Assembly (NCBI GenBank): GCA_947302655.1
Contig: CAMYVW010000001.1
Span: 124,001 to 188,000 of the forward strand
Source of the DNA: an uncultured Mycoplasmatota bacterium
Lineage (GTDB): Bacteria > Bacillota_I > Bacilli_A > RF39 > UBA660
DNA length: 64,000 bases
Reading direction: 5' to 3'
Positions 44,252-56,624 of this stretch are shown piece after piece; within the stretch, counting starts at the first letter, position 1, and the number at the start of each line of letters is the position of its first letter. The translations under genes and the position numbers were made by a program. The notes below the pieces were generated by a model, which was given only the letters and a program-made list of their open reading frames with translations, did not search any database and was not told where the DNA came from.

Positions 44252-44587
44252 ATGTTAAATCAAGTAGTATTAGTTGGTAGACTTACATCTGATCCAGATG
44301 CTGTTGTGTTAGATGGAGGTCACAAAAAATCTGTATTTAATGTGGCAGTTCCAAGAAGTTATAAAAATTCAAATGGGGAGTATGAAACAGATTTTATAAG
44401 GTGTGTGTTATGGGATGCAATAGCAACATCAACAGCAGAGTATTGTAAGAAAGGTGATATTGTTGGTATTAAAGGAAGGATACAAGTATCAGCTTTTGAA
44501 AAAAATGAAAAGAAAGAATACATAACAGAAGTGATAGCTGAAAAAGTAACTTTCTTATCTAATAAGAAGCAAGAAGAAACTAATTAA
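44252..44587 (+). CDS. ssb: Short single-stranded DNA-binding protein, copy 1
   Basis: MLNQVVLVGRLTSDP...; no acidic C-terminal tip. Confidence 0.92.
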   Translation: MLNQVVLVGRLTSDPDAVVLDGGHKKSVFNVAVPRSYKNSNGEYETDFIRCVLWDAIATSTAEYCKKGDIVGIKGRIQVSAFEKNEKKEYITEVIAEKVTFLSNKKQEETN

Positions 44588-44673: not shown

Positions 44674-45861
44674 ATGGAAAAATATTTACTCTTTAACACA
44701 AGAGATGTAAAAACAGTAATAAATTGTCTATTAAAAAATGCTGAAACAACAACATGTGATGATGTTGACAAAGTAATAACTTCATATCTTGGCACAGGAT
44801 ACAATATTAGTGAATCAGACTTTCAAATACCTGAAGAAGAATACGATGAAGAAATTGTTTTACCAGAATATGATTATAAAACTGATAATAAAATGTGCTT
44901 AGAACTATCAAAGATTTTACTTGATCAAATATATGCTGGAAAAGAAAAAATTACATTAACTAAAGAACAAATTGAATCATTATTAATTAATAGAAATAAT
45001 GATACAGTAAATAAGAAAATATTTTATGCATTATGTGATTTAAGAGCAGACATGACTGGTGTTGATTTATCAGGTTTATATATTCACGGACTTGACTTTA
45101 GAGGTTTAAAAAACTTAGTGATAGATTTAGATAAAGTAAAAGAAAAAGATTTTATTAACGTAAACTTTGCTGGAGTTACATTAAAAGGAAGTTTAGATGG
45201 TTGTAAACTTTTTTATACAAGATTTGGTCGAAGCATTAATGATTTAAAGTTAGATCCACAAAAAATAAAACATAAATCTATGAAGTGTACAAATCTAGCA
45301 GATATAACTATTGATGGATCTTTTGATGGTGTAAAAATAGATTATTGTGATTTTACTTATGCTAAAGGTAAAAAAGAAATAAACCCACAGACTGTTTACG
45401 GAAAAACTCTTGAAGGCATAATTCTACATGGTGTAACTTTTGTTGGAGAAAACGGTAGTAAACCATCATTTAAGGGATGCCAAATAAAATATTGTAACTT
45501 CGATGGTATAAAAGGATGTAAAGAAATTAATCTTGAAGAACCTGAATATTATATTGAGGAAGAATACGACGGAAAGAAAATTAAAACTAAGATGGCATAC
45601 TGCAATCTAAGAGGAGTTACGTTAACAGGAAATGTACGTAGATCAGAATTAGAAAACATTGTATATGGATGTTATACTGATTGGATGAGTCATCCAAATA
45701 GATCTGCTACAACAGAACAAGTAAATATGCCTTATAACGGCCCTGTATTTTGTCAATTAGTTTATTTAAACGGAAAATGTATATATGAAAGAAAAGATTT
45801 AGATATAAGAATCAAGATTAAAAGTGGATTTAGTTTCACTAGAAAAAGAACAAGAGAATAA
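44674..45861 (+). CDS. Pentapeptide-repeat-like protein
   Basis: Repeating LxGVTFxG..DGCKxxYxxF modules. Confidence 0.6.
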   Translation: MEKYLLFNTRDVKTVINCLLKNAETTTCDDVDKVITSYLGTGYNISESDFQIPEEEYDEEIVLPEYDYKTDNKMCLELSKILLDQIYAGKEKITLTKEQIESLLINRNNDTVNKKIFYALCDLRADMTGVDLSGLYIHGLDFRGLKNLVIDLDKVKEKDFINVNFAGVTLKGSLDGCKLFYTRFGRSINDLKLDPQKIKHKSMKCTNLADITIDGSFDGVKIDYCDFTYAKGKKEINPQTVYGKTLEGIILHGVTFVGENGSKPSFKGCQIKYCNFDGIKGCKEINLEEPEYYIEEEYDGKKIKTKMAYCNLRGVTLTGNVRRSELENIVYGCYTDWMSHPNRSATTEQVNMPYNGPVFCQLVYLNGKCIYERKDLDIRIKIKSGFSFTRKRTRE

Positions 45862-45969: not shown

Positions 45970-46299
45970 ATGTTAAATCAAGTAGTATTAGTTGGAAGAT
46001 TAACTTCCGATCCTGAAGCAGTTAGAATAGAAGGTGGTCATAAAAAATCTGTTTTTAGTGTAGCTGTACCAAGAAGTTTTAAAAATTCAAATGGAGAGTA
46101 TGAAACTGATTTTATAAGATGTGTTCTTTGGGATGCAATAGCAACATCAACAGCAGAATACTGTAAGAAAGGTGATATAGTTGGTATTAAGGGAAGAATA
46201 CAAGTATCATCATTTGAAAAAGATGATAAAAAAGAATATATTACGGAAGTAGTTGCTGAAAAAGTAACTTTTTTGTCAAGTAATAAGCAACAAAGCTAA
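45970..46299 (+). CDS. ssb: Short single-stranded DNA-binding protein, copy 2
   Basis: About 90% identical to copy 1, shares its SD/leader. Confidence 0.92.
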   Translation: MLNQVVLVGRLTSDPEAVRIEGGHKKSVFSVAVPRSFKNSNGEYETDFIRCVLWDAIATSTAEYCKKGDIVGIKGRIQVSSFEKDDKKEYITEVVAEKVTFLSSNKQQS

Positions 46300-49946: not shown

Positions 49947-50031
49947 CATATAAACGATTTTTTATCGTTTATATGTTTTTTATTTGATTGTTTTTAAATA
50001 TTACAGGTGCTATAATTTTTATTGATGGGAG

Positions 50032-50748
50032 TTGAAGAAAATGAAATTAATAAATATAAAAAACAATAAACTAAATATCATAAATTACTTAATATTAATT
50101 TTATTTTTAACAACTTCATTTTTTACAATTAAACACTTATTTTTTAATAAAAAAAACAAAAATAATAACGCCATAATAGCACGAAATAATCAATTGATTT
50201 ATGCTAAACCACTTTTATATTTATATCCAAAAAAAGAAGCAAAAATAACAGTAACATTTGCTGATCCTAAAAAATTAAAAGTTACATATCCTGTATACAA
50301 AGATAAATGGAAAGTAACTGCAAAAGCAAATGGTGATTTGGAAGACAAGGATAGAAATTATTATTATGCTTTATATTGGGAAGAAGAGGGCAAAGCAAAT
50401 ATTGACTTTACTAAAGGATACTACGTAACTAAGGATGAAGCACGCACCTTTTTAGAAGATAAGTTAAAATATATAGGTCTTAATGATAAAGAAAGAAATG
50501 AATTTATAATTTACTGGTTACCTGTTCTAGAAGAAAATGATAAATCTGTTATATATTTCGAACTTACCGAAGAAAGAGAAAAGTTTAATAAAATAGAAAT
50601 AAACCCAAAACCAGACTCACTTTTAAGAGTTGCTATGCATGTTAAAAGAGTTGAAAAAAAGCCAAATAATCTAGAAAAACAAAAACTAAGCCACTTTCAC
50701 AGAAAAGGATTTTCTGCAATTGAGTGGGGCGGAGTAGTTCATAATTAA
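50032..50748 (+). CDS. Membrane-anchored hypothetical protein, KPxLYLYP-type domain
   Basis: AKPLLYLYPKKEAKITVTFADPKKLKVTYPVYKDKWKVTAKANGDL. Confidence 0.6.
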   Translation: MKKMKLINIKNNKLNIINYLILILFLTTSFFTIKHLFFNKKNKNNNAIIARNNQLIYAKPLLYLYPKKEAKITVTFADPKKLKVTYPVYKDKWKVTAKANGDLEDKDRNYYYALYWEEEGKANIDFTKGYYVTKDEARTFLEDKLKYIGLNDKERNEFIIYWLPVLEENDKSVIYFELTEEREKFNKIEINPKPDSLLRVAMHVKRVEKKPNNLEKQKLSHFHRKGFSAIEWGGVVHN

Positions 50749-50769
50749 TATAAATATATTAATTATTTA

Positions 50770-50798
50770 TTGACAATTATATATGTCACATGTAGAAT
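50770..50798 (+). promoter_or_regulatory. Sigma-A promoter of the RiPP operon
   Basis: TTGACA (50770-50775), 17-bp spacer, TAGAAT (50793-50798). Confidence 0.8.
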
Positions 50799-50856
50799 AA
50801 ATAGCAAATATTTAGTAATTGCCCATATATATGATAAAAATTCTATGAGCAAAACT

Positions 50857-50896
50857 AGGGAACATGGGCATTCTTGTGCTTTTGTTCCCTTTTTTA
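50857..50896 (+). terminator. Leader terminator/attenuator upstream of precursor gene
   Basis: AGGGAACA ... TGTTCCCT + T-run; 5' arm overlaps a competing TGCCCAT/ATGGGCA pairing. Confidence 0.75.
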
Positions 50897-51145
50897 TTAA
50901 GTACACAACATAGGTTTACTATGTTAATGATAAATCCGAAAGGAGGAGTTTTAAATGAATAAAACAAGACAAAAAAATGATATTGTTAAAAATTTAAAAA
51001 CAAAACTTTCTAAAAAAGAAATTAAAATTTCTTTTGGTAAAAAAATTGGGTTGGGTTACGACGGATGCGGAACTCACACTCACAAAGACTAATTTTTTAA
51101 AAGCATTTAAATAAAACAAAATAAATCCTATGTTGTGTATTTAAT
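50896..51145 (+). repeat. 19-bp inverted repeat bracketing precursor peptide gene
   Basis: ATTAAGTACACAACATAGG (50896-50914) vs CCTATGTTGTGTATTTAAT (51127-51145); one G-U at RNA level. Confidence 0.85.
50955..51092 (+). CDS. Candidate RiPP precursor peptide, 45 aa
   Basis: MNKTRQKNDIVKNLKTKLSKKEIKISFGKKIGLGYDGCGTHTHKD; strong SD aaaggagg; immediately 5' of radical SAM/SPASM gene. Confidence 0.85.
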   Translation: MNKTRQKNDIVKNLKTKLSKKEIKISFGKKIGLGYDGCGTHTHKD

Positions 51146-51159
51146 AATGGAGGTAAATT

Positions 51160-52719
51160 ATGAGAAGCCCATGGTTGAGTAGAGAATATGAAAAAAACAA
51201 AAATGTAGTTGTAGAAGAAAAAGATAATAAATATATATTAAAAAATAATACAACTAATAAATCTTTAGAGTTAACTAAAGAAGAATATGAAAAATATGAT
51301 AAAGAACTATTTAATGAAATAGAATGGGAAAGACTATATTTTTATGGATTAGCCAGTGATAGAAACTGTGAAGATCTAGAAATTGATAGTAGTTTTGATA
51401 TATCAGAAATGTCATTTAAAAAGTCTGATATTGTAAAGTCATTTCCATTAAAAACAAAATATGGAATGTATACAATTTTAATAAATCCTGAACTTGGTTC
51501 TTGGATGGCTTTAACCGATGATGATCTAAAAAGATACAATGATAACAAACTTTCAAAATCTGAATGGATGAGCTTATTTATCAGAGGACTTGCTGAGGAA
51601 GAAAGTAATACTAAAGTAGAATTTGAGTTTCCTGAACCAGCAGAATATCCAAGCGTTGTTGTTGTAAACATTACAACAGGATGTAATTTAAGATGTAAGT
51701 ATTGCTTTGCAGATTGCGGTCCTTTTAAAGGTGAAAACATGACAGAAGATGTTATGGATGCAACTATCGAAAGCATGTTATCAATGCCAAAAGTTAAAGT
51801 AATAACTTTTGAGTTTCAAGGTGGTGAGGCCTCAACAAATGTTCCTGGTGTAAGAAAATTTATCGAAAAAGTTGAAGCTGTTAAACCTAAATATGATAAA
51901 CTTGTAAAATATAGAACTGAAATAAACTGTGTTTCAGTTACTGATGAATTAATAGATCTTGTTAAAGAATATAATATTAGTGTTGGTGTAAGTTTAGATG
52001 GACCAAAAGAAATGACTGACCAAAGTAGAGTAGATATCAATGGTGTTGGTGCATATGACAGAATTTATAAAGGTATTGAAAAACTTAGAGCTGGAGGAAT
52101 ATACATCGATGGTGCTGTTTGCACAATAGGTCAACATAATGTTCACTACCCTAAAGAGTTAATGAAATATTTTGATCAAATGGGAATAAGTTTTAAACCT
52201 AGACCTGTTAACATTTTAGGTAGAGAAAAAGAAAATAATATAACAACCAAACCTGGAGAATGGGCTGAATGTTTTAAAGAAATGCATAAGATGAAGAATG
52301 ACGTAGATATTGAAAACTTCTCAATGCATATTTTTGAAGAAAATGTATATACACCTATAAGAGATTATATTTGTTTAAGATATCCATGCGGTGCTGCAAG
52401 GGAACTAGTATCTGTAAATCCAAATGGAGATGTATTTCCATGTGATGGATTTAAAGGTGAAAAAGCATTTGTTATCGGAAATGTTTTAAATGAAAAAGTT
52501 GCTGATATGATTCAAAAACCTGAAGTAGTAAAATTAAGAAGCAGAATTGCTAAAGATATAGAAAAATGTAGTACATGTTTATTTAGAGGAATGTGTTGTT
52601 CATGCTGCTACTCTGCATATGGAAAATTTGGTAGCATCTATAGAGAAGACCCACATTGTTCTGATAAACGACAAATATATATTTATTTAATGCAAGCATG
52701 GCTTGAAGAAAACAATTAA
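51160..52719 (+). CDS. Radical SAM/SPASM peptide maturase
   Basis: TTGCNLRCKYCFADCG (CxxxCxxC), CGAARELVSVNPNGDVFPCDGFKG and Cys-rich C-terminal SPASM. Confidence 0.93.
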   Translation: MRSPWLSREYEKNKNVVVEEKDNKYILKNNTTNKSLELTKEEYEKYDKELFNEIEWERLYFYGLASDRNCEDLEIDSSFDISEMSFKKSDIVKSFPLKTKYGMYTILINPELGSWMALTDDDLKRYNDNKLSKSEWMSLFIRGLAEEESNTKVEFEFPEPAEYPSVVVVNITTGCNLRCKYCFADCGPFKGENMTEDVMDATIESMLSMPKVKVITFEFQGGEASTNVPGVRKFIEKVEAVKPKYDKLVKYRTEINCVSVTDELIDLVKEYNISVGVSLDGPKEMTDQSRVDINGVGAYDRIYKGIEKLRAGGIYIDGAVCTIGQHNVHYPKELMKYFDQMGISFKPRPVNILGREKENNITTKPGEWAECFKEMHKMKNDVDIENFSMHIFEENVYTPIRDYICLRYPCGAARELVSVNPNGDVFPCDGFKGEKAFVIGNVLNEKVADMIQKPEVVKLRSRIAKDIEKCSTCLFRGMCCSCCYSAYGKFGSIYREDPHCSDKRQIYIYLMQAWLEENN

Positions 52720-52733
52720 TATAAGGATTAAAA

Positions 52734-53357
52734 ATGAGTAATAATGAGATAATAGTTGACAAAAGAAATGTTGGTAAAACAACATTTCTATATAATGAAA
52801 TAGTAAAAGGTTACAGTAACTACAATTTTATAGTATTAGATTCAGCAACTGATCACGTTGATAAATCATTACTTAAAAAAGTAGTAAATACATACAATGA
52901 TGCAGTTGTTATATACACTGAAAATCCTTCACAAATTGTAATAAATAATATGAAAATTGAAGAATATAAAAAAATATATAAGAACTATTTTCCTTTTAAT
53001 GAAATAATAACAAATATGAATAATGTTATATGCTTTGATTTATCATATTTTTTAGAAAAGGCTTATGAAGAACTTGAAAATAATAATTCTAAGGAATTAT
53101 ATAACTATTATCGAAAAAAATATAATGATCTTTCACAACAAATTATTACATGTATAGTACTAATGAACAAAGAAGGTTTATTAAATAGTGTGCATGTTGT
53201 TATGGATGAAATTGAATTACCAATTGTTGATTATGATTTAAAAGTGTTGCAAGATGATATATCTTTTCTAGCATCAGTGCATCCAGAAAATTCATTTGGT
53301 ACATTCTATCAAGGTTTTACAAGAGCAAGATTTAAACCATATATAAAAGAGGGATGA
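52734..53357 (+). CDS. P-loop NTPase-like protein
   Basis: DKRNVGKTTFL (degenerate Walker A), VHVVMDEIEL (Walker B). Confidence 0.6.
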   Translation: MSNNEIIVDKRNVGKTTFLYNEIVKGYSNYNFIVLDSATDHVDKSLLKKVVNTYNDAVVIYTENPSQIVINNMKIEEYKKIYKNYFPFNEIITNMNNVICFDLSYFLEKAYEELENNNSKELYNYYRKKYNDLSQQIITCIVLMNKEGLLNSVHVVMDEIELPIVDYDLKVLQDDISFLASVHPENSFGTFYQGFTRARFKPYIKEG

Positions 53358-53362
53358 TAATC

Positions 53363-55432
53363 ATGAATATTGATAAAGATGAATTACAAAAAGAGCAAGA
53401 GTATTTAAACAAAACTCTTGATGTTGTAAATGAACTTATTGAAGAAAATGATGAACTTATTCAAGGAAAGCAAAATGAAATTCAAGAAATGAAAAAATAC
53501 ATTTGGGATAATAATGGTGTTTTGGATGATGTTGAAGTCAAACTTGAAATGTATAATATAAATCGTAGCGTATCAAATACCAACGATACCATAAAACAAT
53601 TACTAAAACTAAAAAAATCATTAATTTCACCATATTTTGGAAGAGTGGATTTTGAAGAAGATGGTTTTAAAGATACTGTATATATTGGAATAAATGGTAT
53701 CATGAAAGATCTAGAGTTCTATGTATTTGACTGGAGAGCTCCAATTTCAAGCTTGTTTTATAATTATGGTGTAGGACCTGCAAGTTATAGTGCTCCAAAT
53801 GGTGAAATATCTGGAGATGTAACTCTTAAAAGACAATATAAAATTAATGGTAACACTATTGAAAGATGTTTTGATAGTGATTTAAATATTGATGATGATT
53901 ATCTTCAAGAAATATTAGCGAATTCTTCATCAGAAAAGATGACCAATATAGTTAATACTATTCAAAAAGAACAAAATGAAATAATTAGAAACATTACTGA
54001 TAAATATTTAGTAGTTCAAGGAATCGCTGGATCTGGTAAAACAAGTGTAGCCCTTCATAGAATTGCTTATTTACTATATAAAGAAAAAGATCTTAAATCG
54101 AATAATGTTTTAATATTTTCTCCAAATGAAGTATTTTCACAATATATTTCCAACGTTTTACCAGAATTAGGTGAAGATAATGTTCTTCAAACAACATATA
54201 GTGATTTTGCATACGCTTTTATGAAAGATGTAAAGAAAATTGAAAGTTTTACTGAATTTATTGAAAGATATTATAAAAATAATGATATGTCTGAAGATGA
54301 ATATAAAACAACTAAGTTTAAAGTATCAGATAAATTTAAAGAGTTAATAGATAAATACATAACTGATTGCAAAAATAATATATCATTTATTAAACCAATG
54401 GTTATTAATGGTAAGACATTTTCTGTTGAAGAGTTAAACAAATTATTTAAAGAAACTTATGATAAATTTCCTTTAACAGAAAGAATATATGTTCTTGCAG
54501 ATCATTTATGTGATTTAACTAAAATTTCATATAAGAAAAACGAAAAATTACTTGATTGTAAGATTAGAGATAATCTAAATTATAATTTAGATTTTAAAGA
54601 AATATATAAAGATATTATTGAATCAGATGAATTTAAAAAATTATCTGGTTCTAATGAAAACATCACCTTTAATCTTGGAAAAGTTTTAAAATATGAAGAT
54701 TTAATTCCCCTTATGTATATAAACTTTGAAGTTAATGGTTACCCAAAAAATAATCGTATTAGACATGTTATTATTGATGAAGCTCAAGATTATTCACTAG
54801 TTCAATTTGAAATGCTGAAAAAAATATTCAACGATTCTTCATTTACAATCCTTGGTGATATAAATCAAACTATCAATCCATATTATAAATATGAAAGTTT
54901 AAATAATGTTAATGGAATATTTAATAACAAAGTCAGATATCTTGAACTTAATAAAACTTATCGTTCAAGTGAAGAAATAATAAATTATACTAACGAGATA
55001 CTAGGTTTAAGTAATGCTTGTGCTGTAAGACATAGTAATAATATACCAGTAAAAGCATGTACTGTATCAATAGATGAAGTTGCTGAACATATTGTTAAAG
55101 ATATTGAAACTATGAGGCAAAATGGCATTAAGAGAATAGCTATTATTACAAAAAACAGTAGTGAAACTTTATCTTTATATGAAGTTCTTAAAGATTATGT
55201 AACTGATATAAGTGTAATTGATAAATCTACAAATAATAAAGTAGGTGAAACTGTAATAATGCCTTCATACATATCAAAAGGCTTAGAGTTTGATGGCGTT
55301 ATTTCGTATACAGACGAAAAGAACCCATATACAGAAAAAGATAAATATTTATTTTATGTAGTATGTACAAGGGCTCAGCATAGTCTAACTGTATATAATC
55401 AAAAAGAATTAAAATTAGAAAGAAAAAAATAA
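53363..55432 (+). CDS. HelD/UvrD-like superfamily 1 helicase
   Basis: VVQGIAGSGKTSVALHRIAYLLY, HVIIDEAQDYSLVQFEMLK, N-terminal coiled coil, FYVVCTRAQHSLTVY. Confidence 0.88.
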   Translation: MNIDKDELQKEQEYLNKTLDVVNELIEENDELIQGKQNEIQEMKKYIWDNNGVLDDVEVKLEMYNINRSVSNTNDTIKQLLKLKKSLISPYFGRVDFEEDGFKDTVYIGINGIMKDLEFYVFDWRAPISSLFYNYGVGPASYSAPNGEISGDVTLKRQYKINGNTIERCFDSDLNIDDDYLQEILANSSSEKMTNIVNTIQKEQNEIIRNITDKYLVVQGIAGSGKTSVALHRIAYLLYKEKDLKSNNVLIFSPNEVFSQYISNVLPELGEDNVLQTTYSDFAYAFMKDVKKIESFTEFIERYYKNNDMSEDEYKTTKFKVSDKFKELIDKYITDCKNNISFIKPMVINGKTFSVEELNKLFKETYDKFPLTERIYVLADHLCDLTKISYKKNEKLLDCKIRDNLNYNLDFKEIYKDIIESDEFKKLSGSNENITFNLGKVLKYEDLIPLMYINFEVNGYPKNNRIRHVIIDEAQDYSLVQFEMLKKIFNDSSFTILGDINQTINPYYKYESLNNVNGIFNNKVRYLELNKTYRSSEEIINYTNEILGLSNACAVRHSNNIPVKACTVSIDEVAEHIVKDIETMRQNGIKRIAIITKNSSETLSLYEVLKDYVTDISVIDKSTNNKVGETVIMPSYISKGLEFDGVISYTDEKNPYTEKDKYLFYVVCTRAQHSLTVYNQKELKLERKK

Positions 55433-55956
55433 TGGAAAAAGAGTATCTTTGTGGAAGTTCATGTGTGAAATATATATTAGATGAATTAAAAATTAATTCA
55501 TCTAATATTAATCCAAACATGACATGGGTTAGTGAACTTGCTCTTTCTTTAAGAAGTAATGGATTAAATAATATAAAACTAAATTGTTATGATAGTAATT
55601 TATATAATGATTTTAAAGACTCTATTATTGATGAAAACTTTGATGGGTTCAAATATATAAAACTTGCTCTAGAAAATAATGTTATAATTGATGAAATTAA
55701 ATTAAGCAAAGAAGAGTTAATATATGAAATTGATAATAATAAATATATTATTATGTGTGTAGAATCAAGTTTACTTAATAATGATCCATCAATGTCTGGT
55801 GGTCATTATATAGTGTTAAATGGAAGAGATAACGATTTAGTTAATGTTATAAACCCACAAAAGAATAAATATAATGAAACAAAGTTTACATTAGATTTTA
55901 TTATAAAACTTTGTGAAAATTATGGTTCGTGGAGAATTTTAATAGGATGTGATTAA
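55432..55956 (+). CDS. C39-like papain-fold peptidase, soluble
   Basis: LCGSSCVKYIL (Cys), SGGHYIVLNGRDNDLVNVINPQ (His/Asn-Pro). Confidence 0.75.
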   Translation: MEKEYLCGSSCVKYILDELKINSSNINPNMTWVSELALSLRSNGLNNIKLNCYDSNLYNDFKDSIIDENFDGFKYIKLALENNVIIDEIKLSKEELIYEIDNNKYIIMCVESSLLNNDPSMSGGHYIVLNGRDNDLVNVINPQKNKYNETKFTLDFIIKLCENYGSWRILIGCD

Positions 55957-55957
55957 T

Positions 55958-56500
55958 ATGATTAAAATAATAGCATTTGATTTAGTAGGTGTTTTAGTTG
56001 GAGAAAAAGATATGGATTTAACCGATGAAGAAACTAAACTTGAAAGAATGTTTGGGCCAAATTTAAACGACTCCGATTATTTTATTGAAGCCAGAAAATT
56101 TATCGATAAAGACCCTATTATACTAAGTACTACTGAAGAATTAATTTCGAAACTTTACCGAGTTAAAGATAGTGATATTTTTAAGAAGGTAAAAGAAAAA
56201 CATCCAGAAGTAAAAAATATTATTGCAACTAATCATATCTCATTTGTAAGGAATTTTATTGGTGAATCATTTGATATTAATTATCTTGATGATTTATTAA
56301 TATCAGCAGAAATTCACCATATAAAACCAAATAGTGATTTTTATGAATATATATTAAGTAAGTATAGTATTAAACCAGAAGAATTACTTTTTATAGATGA
56401 TAATGAAGAAAATGTTCTAGGTGCTAAAAAATTAGGAATTAATGCTATAAAAGTAAATAAAGAAACAGATATAATTGGTGAAATAGACAAGTATTTTTAA
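55958..56500 (+). CDS. HAD-superfamily hydrolase
   Basis: IIAFDLVGVLVG, HHIKPNSDFYEYIL, LLFIDDNEENVLGAKKLG. Confidence 0.88.
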   Translation: MIKIIAFDLVGVLVGEKDMDLTDEETKLERMFGPNLNDSDYFIEARKFIDKDPIILSTTEELISKLYRVKDSDIFKKVKEKHPEVKNIIATNHISFVRNFIGESFDINYLDDLLISAEIHHIKPNSDFYEYILSKYSIKPEELLFIDDNEENVLGAKKLGINAIKVNKETDIIGEIDKYF

Positions 56501-56521
56501 TTCATAAAATTATGTATTAAT

Positions 56522-56560
56522 AAAAAGGTACTTACATATTATAATAGTAAGTACCTTTTT
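56522..56560. terminator. Terminator closing the RiPP operon
   Basis: AAAAAGGTACTTAC / GTAAGTACCTTTTT. Confidence 0.85.
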
Positions 56561-56624
56561 ACCTAATATATCAATAAAATAATTGACAAAAGAAAAAATA
56601 TTGTTATATAATGTATTAGCAAGT

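Follow-up and report, generated by a model that had tools for sequence, protein, structure and literature searches.

An open reading frame of 45 codons in the window (the whole 64,000-nucleotide stretch analyzed here, which lies within a 1.04-Mb assembly) is, judged by its codon changes, a genuine and conserved RiPP precursor under purifying selection at the protein level. It stands directly upstream of a gene for a radical SAM/SPASM maturase, followed by genes for a P-loop protein, the RNA polymerase recycling motor HelD, and a C39-like cysteine peptidase (Table 1). The RiPP pathway is well supported; its target and chemistry we infer. Our tentative reading is that the modified, leader-cleaved peptide acts on RNA polymerase and that HelD serves as self-protection, and we draw the link between peptide and polymerase from gene linkage alone.

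Table 1. Features of the precursor locus (positions in the window)
Feature	Position	Strand	Evidence or remark
Accessory block	49947–56575		Absent from same-genus genome G096 (blastn, window vs G096 region)
Promoter-like site, TTGACA-17-TAGAAT	50770–50798	+	Consensus scan, 11 of 12
Terminator-like hairpin with T run in precursor 5′ leader	50857–50896	+	Fold z −4.2
Long-range helix, 5′ arm	50902–50914	+	Covariation; fold z −6.1 for the window segment with the helix
Ribosome-binding site, AAAGGAGG	50939–50946	+	Read directly from the sequence
Precursor peptide gene, 45 aa	50955–51092	+	Kept at 18 loci; dN/dS 0.08 (residues 2–43)
Invariant core codons 32–43, GLGYDGCGTHTH	51048–51083	+	dN 0, dS about 1.77 (78 pairs, 13 distinct loci)
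Long-range helix, 3′ arm, ahead of maturase ribosome-binding site	51127–51139	+	Covariation, fold
Radical SAM/SPASM peptide maturase, 519 aa	51160–52719	+	HxsB-like, below HxsB cut-off
Two N-terminal βββαα units of maturase, possible leader-binding domains	51187–51600	+	Predicted structure
Maturase CX3CX2C motif (C175, C179, C182)	51682–51705	+	Invariant
P-loop protein, 207 aa (GKTT)	52734–53357	+	In nearly all cassettes, including L020
HelD, RNA polymerase recycling motor	53354–55432	+	NF041464, 524 bits vs cut-off 419
C39-like cysteine peptidase, probable leader peptidase	55432–55956	+	C7, G8, C11, and H125 invariant (14 sequences)
HAD-family hydrolase	55949–56500	+	Pfam and synteny; conserved in f1 cassettes only

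Conservation of the Precursor

A preliminary description of this DNA had proposed an overlooked 45-residue precursor, made up of a leader and a compact core, beside a radical SAM enzyme. The frame was confirmed at that position, and the conservation described here supports the reading as a RiPP precursor. It translates to MNKTRQKNDIVKNLKTKLSKKEIKISFGKKIGLGYDGCGTHTHKD, is preceded by a strong ribosome-binding site that ends 8 bases ahead of the start, and is matched by no Pfam or NCBIfam model. At 18 of 18 related loci, an orthologue immediately precedes an orthologous maturase; some of these are single genomes counted via two search routes, and the aligned DNA comprises 14 rows, 13 of them distinct.

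The frame is short and unannotated, as a chance frame or a dead remnant might be. However, chance is ruled out because the codon changes show selection on the protein: most changes across residues 2–43 are synonymous, and core codons 32–43 give pN 0 and pS 0.68 over the 13 distinct family loci. With conservation and the ribosome-binding site also contradicting it, a chance or non-functional frame retains virtually no probability.

Residues N8, D9, I10, L14, I23, K30, G32, G34, Y35, D36, G37, C38, G39, H41, T42, and H43 are invariant in an alignment of 15 sequences. The core GYDGCGTHTH, whose lack of conservation among homologues would have spoken against the preliminary description, is thus preserved, but conservation reaches beyond the compact C-terminal core described there, to N8, D9, I10, L14, and I23. 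The terminal aspartate, which had been counted as a core feature, is peculiar to the window locus. In most relatives the peptide ends ...THTHK, L008 runs on as GYGVQSNLKAKKD, and the distant Lentisphaerae-labelled copy (L020), whose C-terminal end is GQGYDGCGSHTHDD, terminates in THDD. The core of L020 differs by the replacement of L33 with Gln and of T40 with Ser.

RNA Features Flanking the Precursor Gene

Promoter-like sites similar to that of the window stand ahead of the precursor in several relatives. The leader at 50818–50896 appears attenuator-like by its sequence, as its terminator-like hairpin faces a competing pairing with 50820–50826 (TGCCCAT/ATGGGCA). Comparable terminator-like leaders with competing pairing occur at several related loci. 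The leader has no Rfam match, and the Rfam matches in the window are tRNAs only.

A long-range helix encloses the precursor gene, in which TACACAACATAGG upstream pairs with CCTATGTTGTGTA downstream. The helix is conserved at all family loci covering both arms, with standard pairs in 97.6% of cells and three pairs that change on both sides, counted from related sequences and not as independent events. Its covariation score was reached by 1 of 500 shuffles, and sliding the partner along lowers pairing to 61% or less. The 5′ arm can alternatively form a local hairpin, and in L020 the enclosing helix is replaced by a local hairpin that lies between the precursor and maturase genes. The covariation-supported helix and the upstream attenuator-like terminator would probably determine how much precursor is made relative to the enzyme.

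The Radical SAM/SPASM Maturase

The maturase scores above cut-off for both Radical_SAM (PF04055) and SPASM (PF13186), and its invariant cysteines are C175, C179, C182, C410, C428, C470, C473, C479, C483, and C500. Among solved structures, CteB is closest to it in both sequence and fold, and the maturase model aligns with CteB over 475 columns in Foldseek. The model (pLDDT 73) features two similar N-terminal βββαα units, which may be leader-binding domains. The first of these units is absent from the L020 maturase.

The best NCBIfam match is HxsB (TIGR03978), whose cut-off of 370 bits is not reached by the window enzyme (168.6 bits) or that of the Lentisphaerae-labelled cluster L067 (184.8 bits). 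It is followed by DynA (151 bits, cut-off 450) and PapB (144, cut-off 340), and the SCIFF maturase model also stays below its cut-off (117 of 425). The preliminary description had suggested motifs of the kind that cyclophane-forming enzymes cross-link. This reading is weakened by the maturase scores, which fall far under the cut-offs of the cyclophane-forming models AmcB (111 of 425 bits), GrrM (84 of 310), YhhB (73 of 445), and FxsB (60 of 370).

The maturase occurs in 7 of 196 family genomes, its own included, at 68–78% identity, and at 12 loci in the genome collection, where L020 shows 56% identity. The relatives carry the labels Bacilli, Mycoplasma, or Tenericutes and are MAGs, as are the members so far as named; the Lentisphaerae label depends on a single binned contig. 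Viral contigs yielded no relatives, and plasmids only distant radical SAM proteins (23–30% identity), with the one neighborhood read being unrelated. At strict thresholds, no further member was found in samples of 398 genomes from the phylum of the window and 394 from that of the Lentisphaerae-labelled MAG; in the class sample, a search with the peptide profile returned a single match, weak and partial. The precursor/maturase family is without a description in the open-licence literature searched, in which the search for the term HelD was blurred by the word “held.”

Candidate Chemistry of the Core

With the invariant core residues, a thioether at Cys, a cross-link based on His or Tyr, or the two together would be feasible. 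The invariant Cys-38 is available as donor for a thioether to a non-α carbon, and a Cys thioether was the alternative raised in the preliminary description. It is our judgment, not a result, that the core probably carries a cross-link of some kind and that, among the types, the Cys thioether stands somewhat ahead.

Three aromatic-X-X motifs (YDG, HTH, and HKD) had previously been taken as possible sites of triceptide formation. Glycine has no β-carbon, and YDG is a poor triceptide motif because its third residue lacks this acceptor. The aspartate of HKD is not conserved, which leaves HTH as the only surviving motif. Known triceptides carry a bond from an aromatic ring to the β-carbon of the third residue, and His-based examples exist (PMC11002830). 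A triceptide-type cyclophane RiPP cross-linked at His-Thr-His, or at another motif, would agree with these examples and with the invariance of HTH. However, with YDG and HKD set aside and the maturase under the cyclophane-family cut-offs, we consider this very unlikely.

Organization of the Cassette

The cassette of ∼6.6 kb is one accessory block beside tRNA-Asn. In G096, where RNase J adjoins tRNA-Asn, the flanks of the block are contiguous; the block was either inserted as accessory DNA or cleanly lost. Where a family locus is long enough, the order is mostly precursor, maturase, P-loop protein, HelD, C39-like peptidase, HAD hydrolase. Exceptions are L015, with extra DNA ahead of the HAD gene, L008 and L071, with the HAD gene upstream, and G067, where the cassette extends over two contigs. 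The order from precursor to HelD is common to the Bacilli/Mycoplasmatota MAGs and the Lentisphaerae-labelled MAG, and a C39-like domain is present in the cassettes of both phyla. The HelD, P-loop, and C39-like genes extend the locus beyond what had been described.

The P-loop protein yields a good model (pLDDT 88), for which a fold search of the PDB gave no confident match. The C39-like protein does not reach the Pfam gathering score of 22 bits (14.7 in the window, 15.0 in L067). Its invariant C7 and H125 are assigned by analogy as the putative catalytic residues. Among 192 genomes, the C39-like gene was found in all seven that carry the maturase and in one other, G132. This genome retains only a 47-residue C-terminal stretch of HelD and a 52-residue C39 fragment (L074, G132:C98, 530–835), apparently the remnant of a decayed cassette. 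No exporter was found among the cassette genes scanned, and a check for anti-phage defense (PADLOC) returned only generic helicase and radical SAM matches.

The accessory block also encodes a protein of 235 residues (50041–50748) that probably has a membrane segment at its N terminus; it has no family match and was not found at related loci. Downstream of HelD, the Lentisphaerae-labelled cluster (L067:4651–9650) encodes a SufS-like cysteine desulfurase, next a protein that begins SufU/NifU-like and has an NTP_transf_5-like part, and then a large protein that combines kinase-like, BspA-repeat, and C39-like parts. Elsewhere in the window, two very similar genes for single-stranded DNA-binding proteins (44252–44587 and 45970–46299) flank a gene for a 395-residue protein (44674–45861).

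HelD and the Proposed Function of the Product

HelD raises rifampicin resistance in Bacillus subtilis by protecting RNA polymerase (PMC12802891), and HelR in Actinobacteria likewise confers resistance to this RNA polymerase inhibitor (PMC10719064). The cassette HelDs exceed the NF041464 cut-off in both phyla (524.3 bits in the window, 548.1 in L067), and within the family HelDs those from cassettes group together (SH-aLRT 93, short search). The Lentisphaerae-labelled HelD is a long branch, no closer to the cluster HelDs than to others. The window’s genome contains no other HelD. In the order to which the Lentisphaerae-labelled MAG belongs, 21 genomes were covered, and a HelD of this kind is confined to the one that bears the cluster. 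Some HelD is found in 65 of 192 family genomes, mostly without the cassette. The non-cluster HelDs of the family had no maturase-like neighbor in the loci read, with one weak match of 66 residues (L049, E 0.005), and HelD alone is therefore no marker of such cassettes.

In the mechanism that we propose, the conserved leader (KNDIVKNLK...) would be bound by the maturase, probably via its N-terminal repeats. The enzyme would then modify GYDGCG(T/S)HTH, most likely cross-linking side chains via Cys-38 or His/Tyr. The C39-like peptidase, as its invariant Cys and His and its co-occurrence suggest, would cut off the leader near GLG. Gene linkage suggests that the product would act on RNA polymerase and that the cassette HelD would protect or clear the producer’s polymerase, as HelD and HelR do against rifampicin.

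Several observations favor a peptide that acts on the polymerase. The precursor is under strong purifying selection (core dN 0) and always lies beside one radical SAM/SPASM enzyme; gene order and the C39-like domain are kept across both phyla at a maturase identity of 56%; and the C39-like gene tracks the maturase, its sole extra genome carrying a decayed cassette. The HelD scores in both phyla, the restriction of HelD to the cluster-bearing genome in one order, the lack of a second HelD in the window’s genome and of the whole block in the same-genus genome, and the rifampicin precedents point the same way. On the other hand, HelD occurs widely and has other reasons to spread, the HelD copy of the Lentisphaerae-labelled MAG stands no nearer to the cluster HelDs than to others, the C39 match stays under its Pfam cut-off, and the core modification is a prediction only. 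A secreted antibiotic normally needs an exporter, whereas the cassette has none. The core also lacks any variation, unlike many bacteriocins; such constancy would suit a fixed target and a cofactor-like product alike.

Fixed peptides give rise to PQQ and mycofactocin, and the pathway could accordingly yield an intracellular cofactor-like or metal-binding small molecule from YDGCGTHTH, with HelD and the P-loop protein linked otherwise, e.g. through transcription recovery under a stress that the product relieves. The core, fully invariant in the family and nearly so across phyla, would suit such a product, as would the missing exporter, a Cys and two His that could bind metal, and the cysteine desulfurase and SufU-like genes of the Lentisphaerae-labelled cluster. 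We nevertheless regard it as rather unlikely, since the distribution is scattered and accessory (7 of 196 genomes), the cassette holds no enzyme that would use such a cofactor, and the HelD linkage is left unexplained. The modified peptide could also be a regulator or partner of the producer’s own HelD and RNA polymerase, with peptide, HelD, and P-loop protein forming a stress-response or defense module. Such a role would match the order from precursor to HelD kept across phyla, the lack of an exporter, and the position of the block next to a tRNA gene, but the PADLOC matches reflect generic similarity only and the C39-like peptidase suggests a leader-cleaved product, which makes this alternative unlikely.

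For the peptide acting on RNA polymerase, a fuller formulation would be an undescribed RiPP class with an invariant GYDGCG(T/S)HTH core, whose product inhibits RNA polymerase and which has dedicated HelD immunity in two phyla; in this form we hold it to be doubtful. If true, reduced-genome bacteria make a fixed-structure peptide aimed at RNA polymerase, HelD proteins can be dedicated immunity to a peptide, and HelD beside RiPP genes becomes a search handle for RNA polymerase inhibitors. Even apart from the target, the precursor and maturase form a family without a name and with a strictly invariant core, so that the chemistry is directly testable with two genes.

Comparison with Known Systems

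The maturase resembles HxsB over 413 residues, which include the stretch just ahead of the radical SAM domain, and the target peptide contains His, as in the His-Xaa-Ser system. However, the scores (169 and 185 bits) stand against a cut-off of 370, and the short target peptide carries a single HTH instead of His-Xaa-Ser. The Hxs system is reported with both HxsB and HxsC (PMC9062424), whereas the cassette proteins scanned include a single radical SAM enzyme, with no HxsC nearby.

With the ranthipeptide/SCIFF maturases (PapB, CteB), the enzyme shares the SPASM architecture, and the core contains Cys and Thr residues; in contrast, the PapB and SCIFF cut-offs are not reached and the precursor has one Cys only. 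DynA, the second-best NCBIfam match, relates the enzyme to the dynobactin/darobactin maturases (DynA, DarE, DarW), and dynobactin contains a Tyr-to-His bond (PMC11002830). Yet the DynA score is far below its cut-off, the core lacks Trp, and its Tyr-His spacing is i+6 and i+8 and not i+2. Triceptide systems likewise pair a radical SAM/SPASM enzyme with a short core in which aromatic or His residues occur, but the present maturase falls outside those families. Finally, the cassette HelD corresponds to the HelD/HelR recycling factors in exceeding the NF041464 cut-off and differs from other HelDs of the same bacterial family in its fixed place beside a RiPP precursor and its maturase.
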